A stretch of DNA of 64,000 nt from Arenibacter arenosicollis (GTDB lineage Bacteria; Bacteroidota; Bacteroidia; Flavobacteriales; Flavobacteriaceae). A program made the translations under genes and the position numbers. The DNA lies in contig NZ_JACLHY010000006.1 of the NCBI RefSeq assembly GCF_014397245.1, positions 62,001 through 126,000 on the forward strand, written 5' to 3'. Positions 66-62,607 of this stretch are shown here, piece after piece. The notes below the pieces were generated by a model, which was given only the letters and a program-made list of their open reading frames with translations, was not told where the DNA came from and did no database searches. Position 1 is the first letter of the stretch. Each line of letters starts with the position of its first letter.

Positions 66-3000
66 TTATTTTGCCTTGACTACCTTCATAACACCTTGCA
101 TAATTCGCCAATGACCTGGAAAAGTGCAGATAAAGGGATAATCTCCTGGTTCTTGGGGAGCTATGAATTTTAACACAACCTTTTCTTCAGGGTTTATAAT
201 GGCAGTGGCAAAAAGCACTTCGGGCATGTCAGGGACATAATTTTTCTCCGCACCATTGGCGCCCATAGCCAATTTATCCGCGGCTATGCCCACTTTTTCC
301 TTTTCACCGGATTTGGTAATAACAAGGTTGTGCTGCATAAAATCCGTATTCTCAAAAACGAGCTCAACAGCCTTTCCTGCTTCCACAACAAATTCGGTTA
401 TGTCGTATTTCATTTCGTTTTTAATAGTCTTGATATTAATAAAAATGGCATTGGAACCACTATCCAAACTATTATCCGCATCCAATTCCACCTTATTGAT
501 ATAGGTTTCTACCAAGAGCTCCGCTGGCGACTTATCGTCAAAGAGGTTCTTGGCAGATTTGGAAAAATCCAATTCAACTTCATATTTCCAATCCCCTGCC
601 AACGAGACATTATATTGGCCAGTCTTTAAAAACATTTGCTCCTTTTTGCCCCAAATTCCACCTCCGCCACCAGTATCCTCGACCCGGACGGCAATGGAAT
701 TGCTACCGGCTTTTAAGACCCCTGATGGGATCTGATATACCCTATTGGCCTGATAATCCTTCTCTGTTCCGCCAACCAGCGTACCATTAATATAAACCTT
801 ATCGGAATCGTCTATAGGACCTAAAGCAATAGTGCCCGACTTGGCAGCAACATTGGAAGGAACATCAATATTTTTACGAAACCAAATTATACCATCCATC
901 TGCAATCCAGCATCCTCAATTAGCTGTGGAAGGAGCATTGTTTCCCACTTGGAATCGTCAAACCCCATTATGTTTCTTTGATTTTTATCTGATGATCCAA
1001 TTTTAAAATTAGGGTTGGAAGCCATAAATGAAGTGATAAACCCTTGATGATGTTTGCTACCGGCCACGTAAAGTGCCTTTGCCAACCAATCATCGGCCAC
1101 AACTTGTTCCTCCTGACTCAACTCAAACAATTGTCTCCCAATTTCAGCATTAGCCTCCCTTTCGGAAAAATATAAAAGGGCGGCCAATTGTACCTCAGGG
1201 TCTTTGTCTTTCAATATGTTGGATTTTAACAGCAACGCATCTACAGTTTCGTTTTTCGGCAAGATCTGAATGGCGGCTTTTCTAACCGCTACTGATGGAT
1301 GCTTTAAGGCGGTCTTGACTACTTCCATTGCCTCGGCATTGGAAGAAACAACACCAAGTCCATCCAAAGTCCATAAACCATGCAATGCTCCAGGATTAAG
1401 TCCCAATGCGTCCACTTGGGTATTCCCGACCAATTTGATAAGATCTGGCGCGACCTCAGTATTTCCGTTTTCAACCAATAAACGTTGGGCGGTCATTCGC
1501 CAAAACATATTATCATTGGTTAGGGCTTTTACCAAACCTTTTGAATCGCCCTTATCCAAGGTAATGGATTTTTTGTCCTCGGCATCTTTGGGCAAAATGC
1601 GCCAAATACGCCCCTTAGACTTATCGCGTAGCGGGTTTTCGTAAGCATTCCCCAGTCCGTTGACGGCATCATATCCTCCTCTATCTGTGTTAGGAGTAGG
1701 ATTGTGTTGAATAATAAAATTATACCAGTCCAATACCCAAACTGCACCGTCTGGACCAACTTTGGCCTCCACTGGGGAAACCCATTCATCCGAGCTGGCC
1801 ATTAAATTGCCCCCATCCTTTTCTATATATCCGGCTCCATCCTTTTCAATTTTGGCAATATGAACTACCCCTCCCGTTGGTTCGCAAACGAAGGCATAAG
1901 AATTCCAATATTGTTTTGGAAAGCTTCGTGCAGTATAAAAATGGTGTCCTGCGGCCGCTGTAAAGCCCCCGAAAACATCAACCTGTCTTATGTTTTGTGT
2001 AATTGGTAACATGGCGTAATGGCCATCTATTTTTGTACTTCCCTTAAGTGAAATCCCTGCAACATCTTTTAGGCTCTTATTGGGTATCCCCATAAAAACA
2101 CTATGCGTATTGTTAGCGGTGGATGCAAAAATGGAATTATCCTCGGTAATCCCCAATCCCCAAGTATTGTTACTCGTATTGGTCAGAAATTCAAAATTCC
2201 CAAAGTCCCTATTGAAACGATATATTCCTTGACCAAATTCGAAATTATCACCGGAAATAGTCCCTTTAAAACCTGAATATCCAACTACCCCGTAGATATT
2301 ATTATCAATTCCACGTTGAAGGTTTGATGGTCCGGCGTGGGTATCAAAAACACCCCAGCCATTTATAACTATTTCCTTTATATCCGCTTTATCATCAAAA
2401 TCAGTATCCTTCAAAAACAAGAAATATGGCGCTTGGGAAACCAAAATTCCCCCATTCACAAAGGTAAAACTGGTAGGTATATTTAATTTATCGGCGAAGA
2501 CTGTAAACTTATCGGCTTTTCCATCCCCGTCCGTGTCTTCGCAAATTTTTATTCTGTCATCTCCAGAGCCTTTGTCGTCCCGCACTGTATTGGGATAGTC
2601 AACGGTCTCTATAACCCAAAGTCTACCTTTCTCATCCCAGTTCATTGCTATCGGGTTAATAATATTTGGCTCGGAAGCAAATAGCTCCAGCTTAAACCCA
2701 GCTGGGACCTGGATTAATTTAGCCGATTCCTCCGGTGACAAAGGCAATTGGTATTTGGGGGCAGGATCTCTTTTCTCATAATTGGGAATATTGGCCATTT
2801 CTTTATAACTCAGACTTGGTATGTTCTTGGAGAATTCCTCCCAGTTCTTTTTAACTTGATCACTTACCGCCCAGAGAATACCTTCTTTAATAAGATTTTG
2901 AAATCCGGGTTTGCTCCAAGTTCTTTCATCATGTCCGTAAGCTGTATAGAATACCTTCCCCTTGCCAAATTGCTTTACCCAAGTCCATGGTTCATGATGG

Positions 3001-6334: not shown

Positions 6335-7609
6335 ATGACATTCAAAGACTTAGGTATTATAGAGCCTATCCTAAAAGCCCTAACGGCAGAAGGCTATACA
6401 AATCCAACTCCAATACAAGAACAGTCCATTCCCATATTACTTAAGGGCAAGGACCTATTGGGTTGCGCGCAAACAGGAACCGGTAAAACGGCGGCATTTT
6501 CCATCCCCATCATTCAACAAATGGTTATGGACAGGGAAGCCAATCAACAACAACGAAAAATTAGAACTTTGGTGGTTACCCCTACGAGGGAACTGGCCAT
6601 TCAGATCGGGGAGAGTTTTACCTCGTACTCTCGATTTACAGGAATAAGAAACACTGTAATTTTCGGAGGCATTAAGCAAGGAAGGCAAACAGATGCTTTG
6701 AGAAAGGGAGTGGATGTGGTTATAGCCACTCCAGGAAGGTTATTGGATTTAATGAACCAAGGGTTTATTTCCTTAAGGGATATTAAGTATGCCGTATTGG
6801 ATGAGGCCGACCAAATGTTGGACATGGGCTTTATCCACGATATAAAAAAGATAATTGCCAAATTACCTTCAAATAGACAATCGCTATTCTTCTCCGCCAC
6901 CATGCCACCGGCTATAGTGGAACTATCCAAAAAAATCTTGGGCGATTTTGACCGTGTTACCATTAAACCACAACAGGCCACAGCCGAAAAAGTAGAACAA
7001 GGTGTTTATTTTGTCACCAAAAAAAATAAACCAAGCTTATTGATCCATCTTTTGGAAAAAGAGCCCAATGATTCGGCCCTTGTTTTTTCACGTACCAAGC
7101 ATGGCGCCAATAAAATAGTAAAACAATTGGCCAAGGCCGATATTAAGGCCGATGCCATTCATGGAAATAAGTCACAAAATGCTAGACAAAAAGCATTGGG
7201 CGATTTTAAAGATGGTGAATTAAAGGTGCTTATTGCAACGGACATTGCTGCTAGGGGAATAGATGTTGAGGAACTTTCCTTGGTCATCAATTACGACCTG
7301 CCCAATGTTCCGGAAACTTATGTACATCGTATAGGTAGAACAGGTAGGGCCAGTGCCAGTGGTATTGCACTATCATTCTGCGATGCAGAAGAAAGACCTT
7401 ATCTAAAGGATATACAAAAACTTATAAACCAACAGGTTCCCGTAATAAAGGACCATCCTTTTGTGGATGACGGATCTGAGGAGGTGCCTTTGGTAGAAAA
7501 AAAACATCACAATAACAGGCAAAAACCAAGGACTGGTCATTCCAATTCCAGGGGTGGTAGAAATAACAACCCCAATAGGAACCGAAATAACAGACCAAAA
7601 AGGGATTAG
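6335..7609 (+). CDS. DEAD-box ATP-dependent RNA helicase, RhlE-like
   Basis: A 424-residue RNA helicase. It carries the Q motif (Phe3 and Gln28), Walker A AQTGTGKT (45-52), PTRELA, the DEAD box, SAT, and the C-terminal helicase motifs ARGIDV and HRIGRTGRA. The last 50 or so residues form a basic tail rich in Asn, Arg and Gly, typical of RhlE-type helicases in Bacteroidota and likely to bind RNA non-specifically. Expected roles are ribosome assembly, mRNA turnover or cold adaptation. It appears monocistronic. A long inverted repeat (7691-7737) separates it from the next gene. Confidence 0.92.
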   Translation: MTFKDLGIIEPILKALTAEGYTNPTPIQEQSIPILLKGKDLLGCAQTGTGKTAAFSIPIIQQMVMDREANQQQRKIRTLVVTPTRELAIQIGESFTSYSRFTGIRNTVIFGGIKQGRQTDALRKGVDVVIATPGRLLDLMNQGFISLRDIKYAVLDEADQMLDMGFIHDIKKIIAKLPSNRQSLFFSATMPPAIVELSKKILGDFDRVTIKPQQATAEKVEQGVYFVTKKNKPSLLIHLLEKEPNDSALVFSRTKHGANKIVKQLAKADIKADAIHGNKSQNARQKALGDFKDGELKVLIATDIAARGIDVEELSLVINYDLPNVPETYVHRIGRTGRASASGIALSFCDAEERPYLKDIQKLINQQVPVIKDHPFVDDGSEEVPLVEKKHHNNRQKPRTGHSNSRGGRNNNPNRNRNNRPKRD

Positions 7610-10046: not shown

Positions 10047-10835
10047 TCAACGCGCTTTTCTGATCAATTGGGCCATATATACATATTTCATGTCCCTTAA
10101 CCCTATACCTTCCTGCATAGCTTTGGTAGAAGCTGGTGTGGCGCCCTCACTCCAATTAATATTTTGGTTAAGGGCCTGCTTATAGTCCTTGAACATACTT
10201 ACGGTCATATGGGAAGCGTAGGTATCACTGCCTATTGGACTAATAAAGCGTATTAAACCCCAGTTGCCTTTTCCACCAGCATCTACAACTTTTTGGTGGA
10301 TGGGCTGAAAGATTTCCATCTCTGCCTTTTCATATGAATCGTAATTCATTAAGTCTACCTTCATTAAATCTATCTGGGCTACCGTACCCAAAGACATATT
10401 GAACTCTCCTTTGGTAGTGGCAATTTCTTCTGCAAATATTCTTACCGCCAAATCTCGGGTTGTCGAGGAATGGTTTAATTTTTTGTCAAGATCGGTTTCC
10501 GACATTTTCGGATACGCTGCCTTCGCCCTCTCCATCAAATGTGCCCAACTGCTACCGTCCATCATCTTTACCGGGTCGTTATATAACGAAACGGTCAAAT
10601 ACTGAAATCCCTGCTGTTCGCCCCCTGGGCTCAGCGCCCATAGGTCCCAGCCGATAATATCACCTGCTTTTACACGTTGTACCTGAATTTTTTCCCAAAA
10701 CTCTTCCGTGGCGCTATACTCCATTTCCTGTTCATTGTCCACTTCCATAAATTCAAATACCAAATACAATTTTTCTTGAGCAATAGCCAAATTGCCCATT
10801 AACAACAATGCGAATAGAATCAAAATTTTTTTCAT
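10047..10835 (-). CDS. Secreted protein with two ABM-like repeats, function unknown
   Basis: A 262-residue protein with a clean signal peptide (cleavage after about residue 19). The mature part has two similar halves, one starting at YLVFEFMEVD and the other at AQIDLMKVDL; each has a beta strand, a long helix, a Trp-Gly segment and a strand ending in a T/A-VS-hydrophobic motif. This resembles duplicated ferredoxin-like dimeric alpha/beta-barrel (ABM) domains. The protein resembles in layout the two secreted proteins at 14521 and 15330. A candidate LytTR operator lies 144 bp upstream, next to the regulator gene. No function can be assigned. Confidence 0.7.
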   Translation of the reverse strand: MKKILILFALLLMGNLAIAQEKLYLVFEFMEVDNEQEMEYSATEEFWEKIQVQRVKAGDIIGWDLWALSPGGEQQGFQYLTVSLYNDPVKMMDGSSWAHLMERAKAAYPKMSETDLDKKLNHSSTTRDLAVRIFAEEIATTKGEFNMSLGTVAQIDLMKVDLMNYDSYEKAEMEIFQPIHQKVVDAGGKGNWGLIRFISPIGSDTYASHMTVSMFKDYKQALNQNINWSEGATPASTKAMQEGIGLRDMKYVYMAQLIRKAR

Positions 10836-10979
10836 AATTATAGGTGTTATTGGTTAATGCTACTCTTTCGGGTTATTGATCTTCTTCAAAATCACAACCC
10901 AAATTAAAATCCAATCATTGGTTCGCTTGAACACAATGGAATGTTATATTAACCAAATAATTTAATAATAATCAAATAG

Positions 10980-11008
10980 TTAGGACGAATGGAAGTTATA
11001 ATTGTCCG
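10980..11008 (-). promoter_or_regulatory. Candidate LytTR operator, site A
   Basis: On the minus strand the site reads CGGACAAT, 13 nt, CGTCCTAA. Both half-sites and the spacing recur exactly at 13828-13856. The half-sites are 21 bp apart start to start, about two helical turns, which fits the direct-repeat spacing known for LytTR regulators. It precedes the secreted gene at 10047-10835 in the same orientation as site B precedes the gene at 13920. Confidence 0.6.
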
Positions 11009-11045
11009 TAGGCAAGCTTAAAATTACCAAAGCATTGAACCTATA

Positions 11046-11780
11046 TTAAATAGTATGTAAGTGTTTGAGAAGATGTTCTTTAAAAGATTTACTTATGGGA
11101 ATAACTTTTCTATTAATTTCCAAATGGTTATCGGCAACCACATCCAATTTGGCAATGTTGACCATATAAGATCTATGAACCCTAATAAACATATGGCTCT
11201 TAATTTCCTTTTCAACAACCTTAAGGGTTGTACTGATTAAGTAGTTCCCACTAGATGTTATTATATTACTGTAATTTCTATCGGCCTCTATATAAAGAAT
11301 TTCGTCTAACAGTAACTTCACCATTCGTCCATTATGTCTAACGAAAATACGGTCTACCAAAACCTCAAAATGTTCGGAGATATCTTTTACCTCTGCACTA
11401 TTTTCATGTATTTGATCTACGACCAAGGCAATGGTTCTCTGCAAATCCAAATTATTAAAGGGTTTTGAAATAAAGGCATAAGGGTGTGTAGCCTTAGCCT
11501 TGGCAAAAGTAGCTTCATCGCTATTGGCCGTAAGGTATATTATGGGAATCTTTTTGGATTTCTGAATCTCAATTGCCGCTTCAATTCCATTAATTGCTCC
11601 CTTTAGGTTAATATCCAATAAAATGATATCAGGGGTATTTGCCCTAGCGTGTAAAATGGCCTCCTCTCCCCTCGTTTCAATGCCCATGACTTCATATCCC
11701 AAATTGGAAAGTTGGACAGAAATATTTGCGGCGATGATCATATCATCCTCAACAATTAAAATACGGGTTTTTTGGTTCAT
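11046..11780 (-). CDS. LytTR family response regulator
   Basis: A 244-residue two-component response regulator. The receiver domain (about 5-120) has the acidic pair Asp12/Asp13 (in the VEDD segment), phospho-acceptor Asp56 in IILLDINLKG, the conserved Thr in YLTAN and Lys in ISKPF. The LytTR DNA-binding domain covers about 145-244, with the FIRVHRSYMVN signature. It follows the sensor kinase with only 2 bp between them, so the two form one operon. Likely targets are the flanking genes preceded by the shared 29-bp motif; that is inference. Confidence 0.93.
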   Translation of the reverse strand: MNQKTRILIVEDDMIIAANISVQLSNLGYEVMGIETRGEEAILHARANTPDIILLDINLKGAINGIEAAIEIQKSKKIPIIYLTANSDEATFAKAKATHPYAFISKPFNNLDLQRTIALVVDQIHENSAEVKDISEHFEVLVDRIFVRHNGRMVKLLLDEILYIEADRNYSNIITSSGNYLISTTLKVVEKEIKSHMFIRVHRSYMVNIAKLDVVADNHLEINRKVIPISKSFKEHLLKHLHTI

Positions 11781-11782
11781 AA

Positions 11783-13735
11783 TCAGGCTGCTTTAGGATG
11801 TTGAAATTCAAATGAAACTGAAGTTCCTTTCTTTTGGCGTAGCACCATTTTACCGTCCAATTGCTTGGTTAAAAGTGCTATCAACTGAGTACCAAACCCT
11901 ATTCCATTAGCTTTATTTCCATTCTTGATACCAATGCCATTGTCGTTAACCTTAAGTTCTAAATAATCGGACTTCTGAACCAGTCCTATAGTAATAGTTC
12001 CTTTTAGGTTGTTGGGAAAAGCATATTTCAAGGCATTTGTAATCAATTCATTAACTATTAATCCTATAGGCGTTGCTATATCAACATTTAGCTCGATCTC
12101 GTTCATTTCATAAACCATATTGATCCTTTGTCCGGCACCGTAGGAGTGAAGTACATAATCTCCTAAAATTTTAAAATAATTCTTCATCTCTATACTTGCC
12201 AAATTTTTTCCCTGATATAAATTTTGATGAATCATACTCATACTTTGGATCCGATTTTGGATTTGGTGCATGTTTTCCTTTATTTTTTTGTCGTCTATGT
12301 GGGTCGATTGGAGAGACAGCAAACTGGAGACCACCTCCAAATTATTCTTAACCCGGTGATGAATCTCTTTTATCAGGAATTCTTTTTCATTGTTTTGATG
12401 TTGCAGCAGTACATTCTTTCTTTGGTTATTTTTAATGGCTACAAAACCCAAGACCAAGAGAAACAATAATAATCCGGTGATAATCGAAGTTAAGATCTGA
12501 TTGGACTGTTGCTTTTTTATAGTTCCCTGTTGTAGAAGTATGGTATCTTCCTTTTGTGCAACCTCAAATTCCGTTTGTAACAAAGCAATGCGATGATCGG
12601 ATTCTGCCGTGAAGATTGCCTTTTTTAGCCCGTCATATTTTGAAAATGCTTTGTAAGCCTCCATATAGTTATGGTCGCCTGCATAAGCTTTCCCCAAAGC
12701 TTCATATGCCTGACTCAAATAATATTCATCCCCAAAATCATCAGTCGCTACATTAAGTGATTTTTGAAGGCTTTCTATCGCATTTTTATATTTCCCCTGT
12801 AGATTCTGCATTTTTCCAATGGATAGCCAGGACCGCATCAGCATAAATCCGTTCTCCAACAACTCAGCATATTTAACAGCATTGTGCCCGGCTTTTTCAG
12901 CTTTCTTGTAATTGTTTAAATAGGCATATAAATCCACAAGTGAGATATAGACATCACTCAAATTATTATAGAATCCGTAACGCTCACCAATGGCCAAAGC
13001 ATGTTCAAAATATTTTAGTGCTTCCTCATGTCTATTTAACTTAAGATAGTTGTTGGCTACAACATAAAGGGTGAAATCATAATCCAGATCAATAATCCCG
13101 TGTTCTTCAAAGAGGACTATGGATTTAATACCATATTTTAATCCTTTATCATATTTGGCCTGTTTCCAGAAAATATTACTTAAGTCGCTATAAGCAAGTG
13201 CAATAGCCTTTTTATCATTTTGCTCCTCCCCCAATCTTAGTGCTTCCATGGCATAATCGGCAGCCTTGTCCAATTGCCCCCGGCGTTCAAAAACATATCC
13301 TAGCTGTGTATTTAAAAAGGCAAGGTCCTTGGTCAACACCTTACTTTTAGCTTTTTCCAAGACTATTTGGGCACTGTCCAATTTTTCCATTCGCAAAAGA
13401 ATAGCCCCCTGTGTAATCTGAAATCGGCCATGCCATAATCTATTTTCCATTTCAAGGGTGCGCTCCAATCCCAACTTGGTGTATTGTAAGGCCTTTGTCA
13501 AATTTCGGGTGTGCCAGTAATAGGCAAGATCGTTTAGGATCTCAAATTTCAAGGTATCCGTGGGAGCGCCTTCATAGAACTTCTCCAAATGTTCCAAATA
13601 GGAGGCTCCAAAATTATCAGTATCCACAAACACCTTTTGATAAGGAATCTCCCTATCAAAATCTATGAGTTGACCAAATGAAAATGCACTAAAGAAAATA
13701 GTAATGAAAATTGCTATGTAGTGGTGTTTACCCAT
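11783..13735 (-). CDS. TPR-containing sensor histidine kinase, HisKA_2 type
   Basis: A 650-residue membrane kinase. A signal peptide (about 1-21) precedes a periplasmic array of tetratricopeptide repeats (about 60-380), then a coiled segment, one transmembrane helix (about 414-434) and a cytoplasmic kinase. The phospho-accepting histidine lies in the EIHHRVKNNL motif (His459) of the HisKA_2 family, followed by HATPase boxes NELITNALKYAF, DNGIGI and GIGFGTQLI. This is the common Bacteroidota partner for LytTR regulators. It is divergent from the secreted-protein genes starting at 13920. The sensed signal is unknown. Confidence 0.92.
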   Translation of the reverse strand: MGKHHYIAIFITIFFSAFSFGQLIDFDREIPYQKVFVDTDNFGASYLEHLEKFYEGAPTDTLKFEILNDLAYYWHTRNLTKALQYTKLGLERTLEMENRLWHGRFQITQGAILLRMEKLDSAQIVLEKAKSKVLTKDLAFLNTQLGYVFERRGQLDKAADYAMEALRLGEEQNDKKAIALAYSDLSNIFWKQAKYDKGLKYGIKSIVLFEEHGIIDLDYDFTLYVVANNYLKLNRHEEALKYFEHALAIGERYGFYNNLSDVYISLVDLYAYLNNYKKAEKAGHNAVKYAELLENGFMLMRSWLSIGKMQNLQGKYKNAIESLQKSLNVATDDFGDEYYLSQAYEALGKAYAGDHNYMEAYKAFSKYDGLKKAIFTAESDHRIALLQTEFEVAQKEDTILLQQGTIKKQQSNQILTSIITGLLLFLLVLGFVAIKNNQRKNVLLQHQNNEKEFLIKEIHHRVKNNLEVVSSLLSLQSTHIDDKKIKENMHQIQNRIQSMSMIHQNLYQGKNLASIEMKNYFKILGDYVLHSYGAGQRINMVYEMNEIELNVDIATPIGLIVNELITNALKYAFPNNLKGTITIGLVQKSDYLELKVNDNGIGIKNGNKANGIGFGTQLIALLTKQLDGKMVLRQKKGTSVSFEFQHPKAA

Positions 13736-13827
13736 TTTTTAAAACTATGATATACTTTAAAAAGCCGGGGTTCTTAAATATACGAATATTATTTACATAA
13801 ATCATAGGGTAATTAAAACCGCTTGTT

Positions 13828-13856
13828 CGGACAATAAATCAAGCCCTCCGTCCTAA
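13828..13856 (+). promoter_or_regulatory. Candidate LytTR operator, site B
   Basis: CGGACAAT (13828-13835), 13 nt, CGTCCTAA (13849-13856), identical in half-sites and spacing to site A at 10980-11008; both are preceded by CTTG. It lies between the kinase gene and the divergent gene at 13920, ending 63 bp before that start codon. Confidence 0.6.
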
Positions 13857-13919
13857 ACGGATTGACTCTCAACTTAAAAACCAATTAATTAGTTTAAGGT
13901 ATGGAGTTATTTAATAGTC

Positions 13920-14459
13920 ATGAAATCACCAATAGTACTTTTTATGTTTATGGTTTTAGGTTGTATTTCTTGCAAAAACGACCCAAAAACTATGGGCAAT
14001 GAAATAATAACAGAAAATAATGACAACCAAGAGGTTACTAAAAGAAATAAGCTTCAATCATCTATAGATGCATATCTAAACATTAAGGATGAAGAGGAAA
14101 TTAATGGGATGGTAACGGACAATTACATAAGAAACATGAACGGAATACCCGTAGTTACCAATAAATCGGAATTAAAGGCAAGGCTAAATCTATATACAAC
14201 CGGATTCCCCGACCATATTATATCATTGAGCAATAGCAACGTATGTGAAAATCAGGGTTATGTCAACTGGGTCTTTACTGGAACCCATACAGGACAATTT
14301 GCCGATGTTAACGCAACTGGGAAAAAAGTTAAAATAAACGGATTTTCACATCTGTATTTTAATAAAGAAGGACAAATATATCAAGAGGATATTTTTTACA
14401 ATGAATTGGAATTTTTACAACAACTGGGATACTCCCTGGTAGCTCCAATTCTTGAATAA
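13920..14459 (+). CDS. SnoaL/NTF2-like lipoprotein
   Basis: A 179-residue lipoprotein (lipobox ending at Cys15 or Cys18). After a polar linker, residues about 45-175 match the SnoaL-like ester cyclase branch of the NTF2-like superfamily: a predicted helix with an AYLN-like segment, FPDH, a VNWVFTGTHTG strand and a final HLYFNKEGQI-type strand with a terminal EFLQQLGY. The C-terminal half of the protein at 16781 shares the VNW.F/CTGT and QLGYS segments, so the two are paralogous. First gene of the plus-strand cluster, 63 bp after the candidate LytTR site. Surface location argues against a classical polyketide cyclase; function unknown. Confidence 0.75.
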   Translation: MKSPIVLFMFMVLGCISCKNDPKTMGNEIITENNDNQEVTKRNKLQSSIDAYLNIKDEEEINGMVTDNYIRNMNGIPVVTNKSELKARLNLYTTGFPDHIISLSNSNVCENQGYVNWVFTGTHTGQFADVNATGKKVKINGFSHLYFNKEGQIYQEDIFYNELEFLQQLGYSLVAPILE

Positions 14460-14520: not shown

Positions 14521-15288
14521 ATGAGAACACTTAGGAATTATCTAATTACAGCTGCCCTCTGTATATTTTGGCTAGGAATAGGTATTGCCCAGGGCAATGA
14601 CCAATTTCAGGCTTATTGGGTGCATGAGGATGTTGTAAAACCAAGCATGGTTATGCAATATGAAACTGTTTGCAAAGAACTAACGGATAATATGAAAAAA
14701 CACAATATCCAGGGTCTTAGCGTAATAGTGTCGAATACCGTCGACAACCGTTACATGTGGATTAGTCCAATAAACACCATAGCTGACGTGGACCGTCCGG
14801 TTTTCCAAACATTATCCGAAAAAATGGGGCCGGAAAATATGACAGCCATGTTCAATAAAATGAACAAATGTTACGATGTTGAACACGATTATATTATTCA
14901 AATGGACAAGGAATTGACCTACATGCCCGACGGAATTACTCAAACTCCAGTTGGGCAGGAATATCGAAAGTTTCATTATTACTACTATACACCAGGAAAT
15001 GCTGCAATTGTTAAGGAAAAAGCCCTAGCCATAAAGAAATTATTTCAAAGTAAAGGGTCCAAACTACATTATAGGGTGTACCACAGTGGATTTGGAAACA
15101 GAGGTGCCTATTATATGGTAGCCATTGCTGCCAAAGATGCTGCAGATTACGCCAATAAAATTACCGAGAACAATACATTAATGGGGCCGGAATGGCAAAG
15201 CACCTTTAGTGATTTTATGGGTAGCTTGATACAATATGAGCTGGTTGAAGGCCAAATGAGGCCAGATATGGCCTATTCTCCCAAATAA
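14521..15288 (+). CDS. Secreted tandem ABM-like protein, copy 1
   Basis: A 255-residue exported protein with a signal peptide of about 23 residues. The mature chain starts with a QAYWVHEDVVKPSM segment and contains two similar halves (about 28-125 and 150-245), each looking like a ferredoxin-like alpha/beta domain. It is clearly paralogous to the next gene (shared VHED.VKPSM, LSEKMG, ELTYMP.GI and GQMRPD/GQMHPD-type segments). The start ATG lies 61 bp after the SnoaL gene. No catalytic motif is visible; ligand binding or an ABM-like oxygenase role is speculation. Confidence 0.72.
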   Translation: MRTLRNYLITAALCIFWLGIGIAQGNDQFQAYWVHEDVVKPSMVMQYETVCKELTDNMKKHNIQGLSVIVSNTVDNRYMWISPINTIADVDRPVFQTLSEKMGPENMTAMFNKMNKCYDVEHDYIIQMDKELTYMPDGITQTPVGQEYRKFHYYYYTPGNAAIVKEKALAIKKLFQSKGSKLHYRVYHSGFGNRGAYYMVAIAAKDAADYANKITENNTLMGPEWQSTFSDFMGSLIQYELVEGQMRPDMAYSPK

Positions 15289-15329: not shown

Positions 15330-16106
15330 ATGAAAAACTTAAATCAATTAAATCAATTATTTGTCTTTGTATTATTGGTACTGTTGACTCCTTGCCTTGC
15401 ATTGGCCCAAGCGGAGAAAAATCAGGCCTATTATGTCCATGAAGACCAGGTAAAGCCTTCCATGATGCAAAAATACAACGAGGTATCCAAGGATTTTAAG
15501 GAAGCATGTAAAAAACACAATCTGCAAGACATCAGTTGGCAGGTTGCTTCTACCGACACCGGAAGGTATTTCAACATTTCCCCTATAGAAAATATGGCGG
15601 AACTGGACAAGAACGTTATGGCTCCCTTGTCTGAAAAAATGGGAGAGGAAGCCTTTAGAAATCTTTTTAAGCGGTATAATGAATGCTATGACAAACATGG
15701 TGATTATATGATTTATCTTAATAAAGAACTCACCTATATGCCAGAAGGCATAAGTACAACTACAGAGGGGCAGAACTACAGAAAATGGCATTTCTTACAT
15801 GTTACCCCTAGTAACATTCAAAATCTTAAGGGAAAGCTGAAAGAATTAAAAGCCCTTTATACTTCAAAAGGATCCAAGGAGTACTATCGCATATACCACA
15901 ATGGGTTTGGCAGTATGGGCGATTACTATCTCGCCGTAATTTCGGCAGTAGACGCAGAGGACTACGCTAAAAAATCCAAAGAAAATGAAGCATTATTGGG
16001 CGAAGAAGGAAAAAAACTATTTGATGAAGTGTTCAGTTACGTCTTAAAATACGAAACGGAAACTGGACAAATGCATCCCGATTTAGCCTATACACCATCA
16101 AAATAA
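15330..16106 (+). CDS. Secreted tandem ABM-like protein, copy 2
   Basis: A 258-residue exported protein (signal peptide to about residue 27), a tandem duplicate of the preceding gene with 41 bp between them. The same two-half architecture is present, with QAYYVHEDQVKPSM near the N-terminus and RIYHNGFGSMGDYY in the second half. Divergence from copy 1 is substantial, so the duplication is not recent. Function unknown. An imperfect hairpin region follows before the next gene. Confidence 0.72.
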   Translation: MKNLNQLNQLFVFVLLVLLTPCLALAQAEKNQAYYVHEDQVKPSMMQKYNEVSKDFKEACKKHNLQDISWQVASTDTGRYFNISPIENMAELDKNVMAPLSEKMGEEAFRNLFKRYNECYDKHGDYMIYLNKELTYMPEGISTTTEGQNYRKWHFLHVTPSNIQNLKGKLKELKALYTSKGSKEYYRIYHNGFGSMGDYYLAVISAVDAEDYAKKSKENEALLGEEGKKLFDEVFSYVLKYETETGQMHPDLAYTPSK

Positions 16107-16282: not shown

Positions 16283-16717
16283 ATGAAAACAATGAAATCA
16301 ATTATCGGAGCCCTAATCGTCATTGCCCTATTTATCCCAAATTCTGCATCTGCACAGGAGGGACATTATTATACAGTAACCACCTGGACGCTTAGTATAC
16401 CAGAAAATGGATCTAGGGCAGAGCTCAATGCCCATTTAAAAGAATTTTCTGAAAAAATAACCTTCAAAAACGATAAGGTTATCAGTGAAAAAGTGTTCCA
16501 CCATATATCGGGTGCCGACTTACGAGATTTGGTTGTTATTAGTGAATATGCCAATTGGAACGATATAGATGCCGCATCCAATAAGCAAAATGAATTGATG
16601 AAAACTGCGTGGCCCAAGGAAGAAGACCGCATGGCCTTTATGAAATCGTGGAACAAATACGTGGTAACCCATTCCGACGAAATCTATCAAGAAATTCCAG
16701 AATTAACCAAAAAATAG
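16283..16717 (+). CDS. Small secreted protein, single ABM-like domain
   Basis: A 144-residue protein with a signal peptide ending about residue 24 (NSASA-Q). The mature 120 residues begin with a HYYTVTTWTLSIPE strand, followed by a long helix and a DLVVISEYANW strand, consistent with one ferredoxin-like ABM-type unit. It may thus be a one-domain relative of the tandem proteins upstream. A perfect 10-bp hairpin follows 13 bp after its stop. I do not recognise a named family. Confidence 0.65.
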   Translation: MKTMKSIIGALIVIALFIPNSASAQEGHYYTVTTWTLSIPENGSRAELNAHLKEFSEKITFKNDKVISEKVFHHISGADLRDLVVISEYANWNDIDAASNKQNELMKTAWPKEEDRMAFMKSWNKYVVTHSDEIYQEIPELTKK

Positions 16718-16780: not shown

Positions 16781-17701
16781 ATGAAAAAATTACTAATTAT
16801 TGGACTGGCAATAGCTTTTATAACCGCATGTCAAGAAAAGGCGCCACAGCGCTATACTCAAAGTTCACCTGAAATTAATACGGTCAAGAAATTGATCGAC
16901 AATTACAATAATAAAACCTATGACACCAGTATCTATGCGGATACTTCAAAAACATATTACAACAAAAAGGATACCCCCTTAACACCTGATGAGGTTATTA
17001 CCTATCACAAAGAAAGGGATTTGGCCTACTTAAATAGAAGTTTCCTTGCAAAGGACCAAGAATATGAAATGGTACTCACTGATGATGGCGAAACATGGGT
17101 AAATTGTTGGTTGGATTGGCAAGGTACTCTTGCAGGAAATGGTCAAGTAGTCAATATCCCAATACACTTAACATATCGTTTCGCAGATGGTAAAATTGTT
17201 CGGGAAGTTGGGATGTGGGATCCTACGGAAGTGGTCCTTGCCGTCCAAGAAATGGAAATGAAAAACAGCATGTCTGCCGATGAAAAAGCTATTCAGGCTA
17301 CCATAGACAATGTCACCAAGGCATGGAATGCAAATGACAAGGAGTTAATGTATGGCAATTTGGCCAAAAATGTCACAAGAACAGCCAATGGGGTAACCAT
17401 CGCCAAAAAACAATCCGATTACGGAGACTTTATGGATATCTACCACAACGCATTTCCTGATTTTAAGGTAAGCTTGGACAAAACGGTAATTGATGGCAAT
17501 AAGGCCTATCTCAACTGGACATGCACCGGCACCAACAAGGGAGAATTCATGGGGAATCCACCTACCAACAAAAAAATCAAAACCCATGGTTTTAGTGTCT
17601 GGATGTTCGACAAGGCAAATAAGGCCATTAGAGAGGATGCCTTCTATGACAATCTCGTAGTTTACGAACAGTTGGGATATTCCATGCCCATGCCGAAATA
17701 A
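16781..17701 (+). CDS. Lipoprotein with two NTF2/SnoaL-like domains
   Basis: A 306-residue lipoprotein with lipobox Cys17 (FITAC). It has two NTF2-like halves: about 30-155, containing WVNCWLDWQGT, and about 170-300, containing FPDFKVSL, YLNWTCTGTNKGEF and a final QLGYSMP. The second half is the closer match to the single-domain lipoprotein at 13920. Duplicated NTF2-like domains often act as small-molecule binding or isomerase scaffolds, but no catalytic dyad is evident. The RidA gene starts 25 bp downstream, suggesting co-transcription. Confidence 0.75.
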   Translation: MKKLLIIGLAIAFITACQEKAPQRYTQSSPEINTVKKLIDNYNNKTYDTSIYADTSKTYYNKKDTPLTPDEVITYHKERDLAYLNRSFLAKDQEYEMVLTDDGETWVNCWLDWQGTLAGNGQVVNIPIHLTYRFADGKIVREVGMWDPTEVVLAVQEMEMKNSMSADEKAIQATIDNVTKAWNANDKELMYGNLAKNVTRTANGVTIAKKQSDYGDFMDIYHNAFPDFKVSLDKTVIDGNKAYLNWTCTGTNKGEFMGNPPTNKKIKTHGFSVWMFDKANKAIREDAFYDNLVVYEQLGYSMPMPK

Positions 17702-17726: not shown

Positions 17727-18239
17727 ATGAACAAAAAAATAAAATTTCCCATTATAATTCCACTACTTTTCCTAATAGCAATAAGCCTAAACTGTAAGGA
17801 AAAAACCGCAGATAAAGCTATGGATCAACCTGCGATTATGGTGGAAAAGGAAATTCCAGAATATTTTCTACTGCGTCCTGAAGTCGAGAAGGCCTATGGC
17901 TACTCACATGCCGTAAAAATAGGGAATGCAATAAAGATTTCCGGAGCCGTGAGTATGGACGATGAAGGCAACCCGACCGCAATAGGAGATCTTGGACAGC
18001 AGATGAAAAACTGTTACTCCGACTTGGAAAAGGTCTTAACGCACTATGGATGCACCTTCGATGATGTGTTGGTAGAAAATGTTTTCACCACCAACATGCC
18101 CAAGTTTCTAGAAGTTGCCGCATATAGAAATGAGATTTATAAAAATCAATATCCAACAGGTTCTTGGCTAGGCGTCAAGGAACTGGCACTTCCGGAATTT
18201 ATGATCGAAATAGAATTGGAGGTTCATAAAGCGGAATAA
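17727..18239 (+). CDS. RidA family lipoprotein
   Basis: A 170-residue lipoprotein (lipobox near Cys23, ISLNC) carrying a complete RidA/YjgF/YER057c domain from about residue 40. Visible family features are VKIGNAIKISGAVSMD, an LGQQMKNCYSDLEKVL helix, VFTTNM and the C-terminal MIEIELEVHK. Family members deaminate reactive enamine/imine intermediates, usually in the cytoplasm; the Arg needed for that reaction normally precedes the final strands (as in R-x-A/C-V), and here the aligned segment reads WLGVKELALPEF, with no Arg. A non-deaminase role outside the inner membrane is therefore likely. Confidence 0.82.
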   Translation: MNKKIKFPIIIPLLFLIAISLNCKEKTADKAMDQPAIMVEKEIPEYFLLRPEVEKAYGYSHAVKIGNAIKISGAVSMDDEGNPTAIGDLGQQMKNCYSDLEKVLTHYGCTFDDVLVENVFTTNMPKFLEVAAYRNEIYKNQYPTGSWLGVKELALPEFMIEIELEVHKAE

Positions 18240-61732: not shown

Positions 61733-62607
61733 TCGTTTTCCAATTGTTTTTTATATTCTTCTAAATTAGCTTTTATTTTATCATCCAGTTCCGGTTCCCT
61801 TATATCTTTGTATTTTTTTAACTCTTCCAACAAAATAGCGGCAACAATTACCCGGGCGGCCTTTTTATTGTCAGATGGAACTACAAACCAAGGGGCATGA
61901 GGTTTTGAAGTATTGTTTATTGCCTCTTCATAACACTTTTGGTACTTATCCCATATTAGTCTTTCCTTTAAATCGCCTGGGGAAAATTTCCAATTTTTCT
62001 TCCTTAAAGCCAACCTACGCAACAAACGCTGTCGCTGCTCTTCTTTGGACAAATGAAGAAAAAATTTAAAAATGATAGTTCCGTTTTCTTCAATGTGGCG
62101 CTCAAAATTATTTATTTGTTCAAAACGCTTGTCCCAAAAATTTTGGTCTATGTCCGACACATTGTGGATTCCAGGGATATGCTCGTTCAAAATATATTCT
62201 GGATGCACCCTAGTCACCAAAACGTTCTCGTAATGTGTCCGATTAAAAACCCCAAATTTTCCCTTGGCCGGAAGGGCAATGTAGTGTCGCCAAATATAAT
62301 CGTGCTTTAATTCCAATTCTGTTGGCACCTTAAAACTATGAACCACCACTCCCCTTGCATTAAAATCTTTGAACACCTCCCTAATTAGGCTGTCCTTCCC
62401 TGCTGTATCCGTACCCTGTAAACAAATTAGTACGCTGTATTTGCCATGGGCATACATTGTGTCCTGAAACTCTCCCAGCTCAATCCTAATATTTTCCAAT
62501 GCCCTCCGCAATTTTTTATCTGACGAGTCTAAATCTTCCCTAGTATCTAAATTCACCAATTCAATTTCGCTATCAACCCTATAAGCATCTACCTCTATAT
62601 TTTTCAT
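61729..62607 (-). CDS. Polyphosphate kinase 2 family protein
   Basis: A 292-residue PPK2-family kinase with a Walker A loop (CLQGTDTAGKDSLIREVF), a Walker B/lid region with FNRTHYENVLVTRVHP, and DKRFEQINNFERH. Such enzymes make nucleoside di- or triphosphates from polyphosphate. A single PPK2 domain of this length suggests class I or III; I cannot tell which. Coupled to the peptidase gene downstream by a 4-bp overlap, though no functional link is obvious. Confidence 0.92.
   Translation of the reverse strand: MKNIEVDAYRVDSEIELVNLDTREDLDSSDKKLRRALENIRIELGEFQDTMYAHGKYSVLICLQGTDTAGKDSLIREVFKDFNARGVVVHSFKVPTELELKHDYIWRHYIALPAKGKFGVFNRTHYENVLVTRVHPEYILNEHIPGIHNVSDIDQNFWDKRFEQINNFERHIEENGTIIFKFFLHLSKEEQRQRLLRRLALRKKNWKFSPGDLKERLIWDKYQKCYEEAINNTSKPHAPWFVVPSDNKKAARVIVAAILLEELKKYKDIREPELDDKIKANLEEYKKQLENE

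Follow-up and report, generated by a model that had tools for sequence, protein, structure and literature searches.

A three-box candidate operator conserved with a LytTR response regulator before exported-protein genes in Arenibacter and other Bacteroidota

The 64,000-nucleotide (nt) stretch of Arenibacter arenosicollis DNA considered here (the window; positions 62,001 to 126,000 of contig NZ_JACLHY010000006.1, assembly GCF_014397245.1) encodes a LytTR two-component system, comprised of a response regulator with a receiver followed by a LytTR DNA-binding domain (11046..11780, minus strand; Pfam Response_reg 3.6e-20, LytTR 3.3e-17) and, directly upstream in the adjacent gene, a TPR sensor histidine kinase (11783..13735, minus strand; Pfam HisKA_2 8.1e-26, HATPase_c). 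The initial annotation had reported a bipartite motif, CGGACAAT-N13-CGTCCTAA, at 10980-11008 (minus strand) and 13828-13856 (plus strand), and had proposed it to be a LytTR operator with 21-bp direct repeats serving a self-contained regulon. Both copies are indeed present with identical half-sites and 13-nt spacers, the regulator and kinase genes lie between them, and each copy points at a gene whose product has a signal-peptide- or lipobox-like N-terminus. Our analysis indicates that this motif represents two thirds of a larger predicted operator, with three TTCG-type boxes at a 21-base-pair (bp) period situated just upstream of a putative Bacteroidota-type promoter, and that this operator is conserved together with the regulator in many other Bacteroidota, usually before genes for exported proteins. 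We consider it very probable that the unit is the operator of the LytTR regulator encoded between the two copies.

The architecture emerged from regions picked by orthology rather than by motif. The kinase was searched in 299 genomes of the same family, and 30 relatives' loci were taken, namely those of the 29 relatives among the 30 best loci and that of G199 (G, L and C numbers are our handles for genomes, loci and contigs). The 31 kinase-upstream regions, with that of the window included, align with three boxes at 21-bp steps, TTCGATAAAT, TTCGGACA and TTCGTCC, after which come a TT and another T-rich element. The copies first noticed correspond to boxes 2 and 3 (R2 and R3), so that the bipartite description has to be replaced by a tripartite one with conserved promoter-like elements after it. 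The family consensus is TTnG[AG]TAA for box 1 (R1), TTCGGACA for R2 and TTCGTCCT for R3; the boxes are 8 bp long and 13 bp apart, which agrees with the geometry of LytTR operators (repeats of 8-11 bp, gaps of 11-13 bp and a period of 20-22 bp). While the R2-R3 spacing was set by the search itself, that between R1 and R2 was free, and yet the 71 aligned sites described below all share it, with no gap needed.

Within the window, the operator-promoter unit before the line of genes led by a SnoaL-type lipoprotein spans 13803..13893 (plus strand) and is among those aligned by orthology; it is comprised of R1 TAGGGTAA at 13805..13812, which lies outside the search core, R2 TTCGGACA at 13826..13833, R3 TCCGTCCT (family form TTCGTCCT) at 13847..13854, and, across 13861..13892, a putative -33 element (ATTG, 13861-13864) and a putative -7 element (TTAATTAG, 13885-13892) in columns that are conserved across sites outside the search core. 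The second unit, before the gene for an exported protein of 262 amino acids (aa), spans 10943..11033 (minus strand), with R1 TTTGGTAA at 11024..11031, R2 TACGGACA at 11003..11010 and R3 TTCGTCCT at 10982..10989. The promoter-like columns conserved across the family are TT at +34/35, T at +57 and TT at +61/62, and just 31 of the 73 sites have G at +64. For Bacteroidota housekeeping promoters, PMC7366714 gives a consensus of TAnnTTTG at -7 and TTTG at -33, and the conserved TT, which begins 7 bp after the end of box 3, fits this -33 element. Scans for sigma-70-type promoters and for terminators were uninformative. Towards the kinase, a TATA-like stretch, TTAAATATAC (13770-13790, minus strand), is conserved in many of the 31 upstream regions and is possibly the kinase promoter.

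An early version of the core, whose spacer was one base too long, fitted all 31 regions poorly (3-5 mismatches, in part because box 1 was paired with box 2), though still more often than it did mononucleotide shuffles, and gave way to a corrected one once the regions had been aligned. The exact core CGGACA-N13-TTCGTCC is found 76 times, in 41 of the 299 genomes, and its reversed control 36 times. A slightly wider core gave 80 matches in the collected loci, 73 of them intergenic (L084 was retained by hand, the overlapping open reading frame being a kinase with an over-long start) and seven within open reading frames. Removal of L165 and L166, copies of one repeat, left 71 training sites for a sequence-only covariance model with roughly calibrated E-values. 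At positions not covered by the selected core, all 71 sites agree in the G and one A of box 1 and in one T of the -7-like element. The box-1 scores of these sites, which also trained the profile, are all positive (minimum +2.1), whereas the nine excluded core matches (the seven within open reading frames and the two copies of one repeat) score between -12 and -35.

A scan of the organism's own genome (5,396,743 bases, 77 contigs) with spacers of 12-14 nt recovered the exact bipartite motif only at its two places in the window. With up to three mismatches the window likewise yields two matches, both exact, against a mean of 0.30 in dinucleotide shuffles, 2 of 100 of which reach two. Across the whole genome this short form is unspecific at three mismatches, with 36 matches versus 28 for the reversed control, and specificity resides in the fuller motif. 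The profile finds three sites in this genome, that before the lipoprotein genes (E 7.2e-15), that before the 262-aa protein gene (7.1e-11) and a third on contig C4 (1.1e-12); all three belong to the training set, and the informative point is the gap before the next match, at 0.06. The C4 site precedes a gene for a 309-aa protein whose start resembles an export signal and which matches SnoaL_2 above the cut-off, and therefore the regulon appears to extend beyond the locus. It is thus not self-contained, and two relatives (G025 and G253) each carry 14 or more sites at E<=0.01.

The motif tracks the regulator across genomes. The regulator orthogroup is present in 59 of the 299 same-family genomes at no less than 48% identity (the next match being at 41%), and, with 14 candidates scored per genome, a site at E<=1e-5 occurs in 56 of these 59 as opposed to one of the 240 regulator-negative genomes (Fisher 7e-56, with genomes treated as independent though they are related). 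In that single genome, G247, the kinase runs into the contig start. The regulator is a more constant partner of the operator than the kinase: in distant loci kinase identity falls to about 35%, that of the regulator staying at about 50-56%, and in G031 a regulator at 48% lies directly before a site, with no kinase match found in that genome. These observations support the assignment of the motif to the LytTR regulator, which would bind it.

Among named genomes, in which the best 80 of 540 loci were scanned with the regulator alignment, a site at E<=1e-3 is present in 28 of 34 loci whose regulator is at least 46% identical and in none of the 46 below this value, a boundary that was set after inspection of the data (the identity for L327 covers 99 residues only). 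In 31 of these 34 loci the best site lies outside the training set, and 27 of the 31 score above 0. They include loci from Algoriphagus marinus (Cytophagales), Flavihumibacter profundi (Chitinophagales) and a Spirosoma metagenome-assembled genome; the nearest regulator, among the matches listed, is that of Arenibacter sp. F26102, with 98% identity, and Zobellia russellii is another of the relatives found. In a phylum-wide sample of 395 genomes, 13 have a site at E<=1e-3, of which nine are from the same family, two, with strong sites, from other families of the class (G418 and G483), and two, with weak sites, from more distant lineages. A kinase at 50% and a regulator at 56% adjoin the sites of G483, and G418 has partial kinase matches, 52-53% over about 200 residues. 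L262 of G483 has, close to its kinase-regulator pair, several sites that stand before SnoaL-type genes as well as before genes labelled by eye as coding for a permease and a membrane protein.

In relatives too, the motif precedes homologous genes for exported proteins. From 106 sources, selected for containing site matches or the kinase, we collected 116 distinct sites scoring above 10, 111 of which have a co-directional first downstream gene within 400 nt. A crude signal-peptide rule classes 95 of these 111 genes as exported, compared to 405 of 912 other open reading frames from the same loci, a background that has spurious frames. Grouped by sequence linkage, the first genes have as their largest clusters a SnoaL-type one (36), an exported family lacking a Pfam match (12), the 262-aa family (8) and relatives of the 258-aa protein (6).

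The symmetry of the boxes bears on how they might be read. In the kinase-upstream alignment R1 and R2 are more similar as direct (0.60) than as inverted (0.36) repeats, and diverged relatives provide clearer cases. Beside regulators of 44-45% identity, L308 has TTCGGTCA three times in direct orientation with period 21 (~264-311, minus strand), and L313 has three boxes of the form TT[CT]GGAA[AG], namely TTCGGAAA, TTCGGAAA and TTTGGAAG, also direct with period 21 (~661-708, plus strand). Because these two loci show three near-identical direct boxes, we read the operator as direct repeats, three rather than the usual two; the R2-R3 symmetry by itself is ambiguous. The direct-repeat part of the initial proposal is thus favored, with the qualification that boxes 2 and 3 have some likeness to an inverted repeat as well. 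A search for triples of the variant box at periods 15-28 in 52 loci without a profile match gave triples at period 21 alone, and a further scan for variant triples at this period, just after the regulator in 37 loci, turned up nothing beyond L313 and an N run in L343. One count of triple repeats, though it favored period 21, was discarded, most of its signal coming from tandem repeats in L341, L295, L301 and L354; the L341 repeat (~6702-6880), with 21-bp units (ATAACTATA...), is unrelated to the operator and constitutes a trap for period tests.

Several points weigh against this overall interpretation. No strong site is present in three of the regulator-positive genomes, of which G111 and G211 have a degenerate box (L076, L087) and G202, which is 68% complete, has its best match at 3.5e-4. 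At E<=1e-3, sites also turn up in two further genomes without the regulator (G078 at 2.8e-5 and G210 at 9.2e-4), and 13 more have a best E between 0.001 and 0.01, where about two would be expected over 240 genomes were the E-values exact rather than rough. The Fisher tests take related genomes as independent. The R2-R3 similarity is higher in the inverted (0.66) than in the direct (0.51) orientation, that between R1 and R3 is weak in either (0.35 direct, 0.32 inverted), and the variant box was selected after L308 and L313 had been viewed. Finally, the -7 element of the 10943-11033 site matches the consensus poorly, and the proposal that the phosphorylated regulator activates the promoter that follows, which we hold to be likely, has the position of the boxes as its basis.

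The distance of 7 bp from the end of box 3 to the conserved, -33-like TT suggests activation, which is a better guess than repression. The main competing explanation, which we deem rather unlikely and which overlaps with the link between operator and regulator, retains both partners and has the regulator repress its targets, or has the kinase-side site mainly autoregulate the divergent kinase gene. Such a role would find a precedent in CoxC, a LytTR regulator with three boxes that is a repressor according to PMC11347149, and the kinase-side site does lie in a divergent intergenic region with the conserved TATA-like stretch towards the kinase. However, the CoxC operator covers the -35 element in that account, whereas in the present operator the -33-like position lies downstream of box 3, and unlinked sites, such as that on C4, have no kinase gene to autoregulate. 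The inverted similarity of R2 and R3 raises the alternative of another dimeric factor that merely travels with the locus and recognizes the core as an inverted repeat, GGAC-N17-GTCC. We regard this as very unlikely, given that R1 stands at the same 21-bp step without a GTCC half, that the two diverged relatives have three near-identical direct boxes, and that sites distant from the locus still track the regulator in the genome comparison above. More improbable still is binding of the sites by a different LytTR protein of the same genomes, a paralogue with about 33% identity: such a paralogue is encoded in A. arenosicollis itself (G000:C18), but genomes with the paralogue alone lack a strong site, for instance G001 and G050 (none at E<=0.01) and G120 (best 0.008). 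Chance likeness of two short sequences, for which the low specificity of the short form at three mismatches might be cited, can practically be dismissed in view of the conservation of sites across genera, the mere two exact occurrences in the genome and the co-occurrence with the regulator.

Under the activating interpretation, three LytTR domains could occupy one face of the DNA, the 21-bp period being close to two helical turns. A signal sensed through the N-terminal TPR region of the kinase would lead to phosphorylation of the regulator and thereby switch on a set of exported proteins, which in A. arenosicollis would include the products of the six-gene line led by the SnoaL lipoprotein, the 262-aa protein and that of the unlinked SnoaL-type gene on contig C4.

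RcoM is a one-component carbon monoxide sensor with a LytTR domain, and, to our knowledge, response-regulator operators across Bacteroidota are poorly mapped. The usual LytTR site has two repeats with 11-13-nt spacers, as given in PMC4847170. According to PMC11347149, RcoM-1 of Paraburkholderia xenovorans is an activator with three direct 8-bp repeats, TTCNNGCA, 12-13 bp apart and upstream of -35, and CoxC of Afipia carboxidovorans is a repressor with three direct repeats, TTNNNGCN, at intervals of 18-21 bp, its operator overlapping -35. On these accounts, the Arenibacter system shares with RcoM-1 the LytTR domain, the box triplet and its geometry, with R2 (TTCGGACA) matching 5 of the 6 specified bases of TTCNNGCA and R1 and R3 differing more; unlike RcoM-1, it combines a receiver-LytTR response regulator and a TPR kinase with Bacteroidota promoters, boxes that differ among themselves, and other targets. 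With CoxC it has in common three direct repeats for a LytTR domain, whereas CoxC, as described there, is a membrane MHYT one-component repressor with its operator over -35. Systems of the YpdB type resemble it in having a LytTR response regulator of a two-component system and 11-13-nt spacers, hence a similar period, but differ, according to PMC4847170, in having two repeats (GGCATTTCAT for YpdB) and a LytS-type kinase in place of the TPR-HisKA_2 kinase. Among the papers listed in a literature search none gives an account of this operator or regulon, which is weak evidence of absence. The present system supplies a candidate three-box LytTR operator in a two-component context along with natural operator variants; those of L308 and L313, beside diverged regulators, may amount to a natural specificity switch. 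It also renders regulator, operator and target list readable from sequence alone across the phylum.

The predicted targets offer a handle on exported SnoaL-type and unclassified proteins without a known role. The 262-aa protein (10047..10835, minus strand) has no Pfam or NCBIfam match; we did not assign it a ferredoxin-like fold, as its structure model is too poor (pLDDT 45.6) and its profile meets that of the 255-aa family described below only in the signal peptide. The plus-strand line, presumably an operon, begins with the SnoaL-type lipoprotein (13920..14459; Pfam SnoaL 9.3e-15), followed by an exported 255-aa protein (14521..15288) without a Pfam match, whose AlphaFold2 model (pLDDT 86.6) has two ferredoxin-like repeats of an anthrone-oxidase/monooxygenase-like fold; its best Foldseek hit is the anthrone oxidase-like 5f9p (E 1.5e-9, TM 0.57, 11% identity), a loose likeness. 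Next come a paralogue of this protein (15330..16106; 44% in the alignment), an exported 144-aa protein without a Pfam or NCBIfam match (16283..16717), a second SnoaL-type lipoprotein (16781..17701; Pfam SnoaL 2.4e-19) and, as the last gene, a RidA-like (Ribonuc_L-PSP) lipoprotein (17727..18239; Pfam 3.7e-20).

Among the first genes after sites in the enlarged regulons of G025 and G253 (L144-L151, L264-L273) are those for an O-methyltransferase, a berberine-bridge-type FAD enzyme, a putative cyclase, and enzymes of the SDR and NmrA types. SnoaL-type and anthrone-oxidase-like folds are otherwise known from aromatic polyketide tailoring, and one might speculate, as a doubtful proposition, that a previously undescribed, Bacteroidota-wide pathway links extracytoplasmic sensing of aromatic or quinone-like compounds to the export of such proteins, with G025 and G253 adding the O-methyltransferase, the berberine-bridge-type oxidase and the SDR/NmrA enzymes.

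As to gene order, a SnoaL-type gene is directly divergent from the kinase in 26 of the 30 relatives' loci, the exceptions being L070, L076, L087 and L090. In L070 (G049) the genes after the kinase, on the opposite strand, encode a LytTR regulator and a further TPR kinase (47%), such that two kinases flank one regulator; the regulator is convergent to the kinase in 9 of the 29 other fetched relatives as well.

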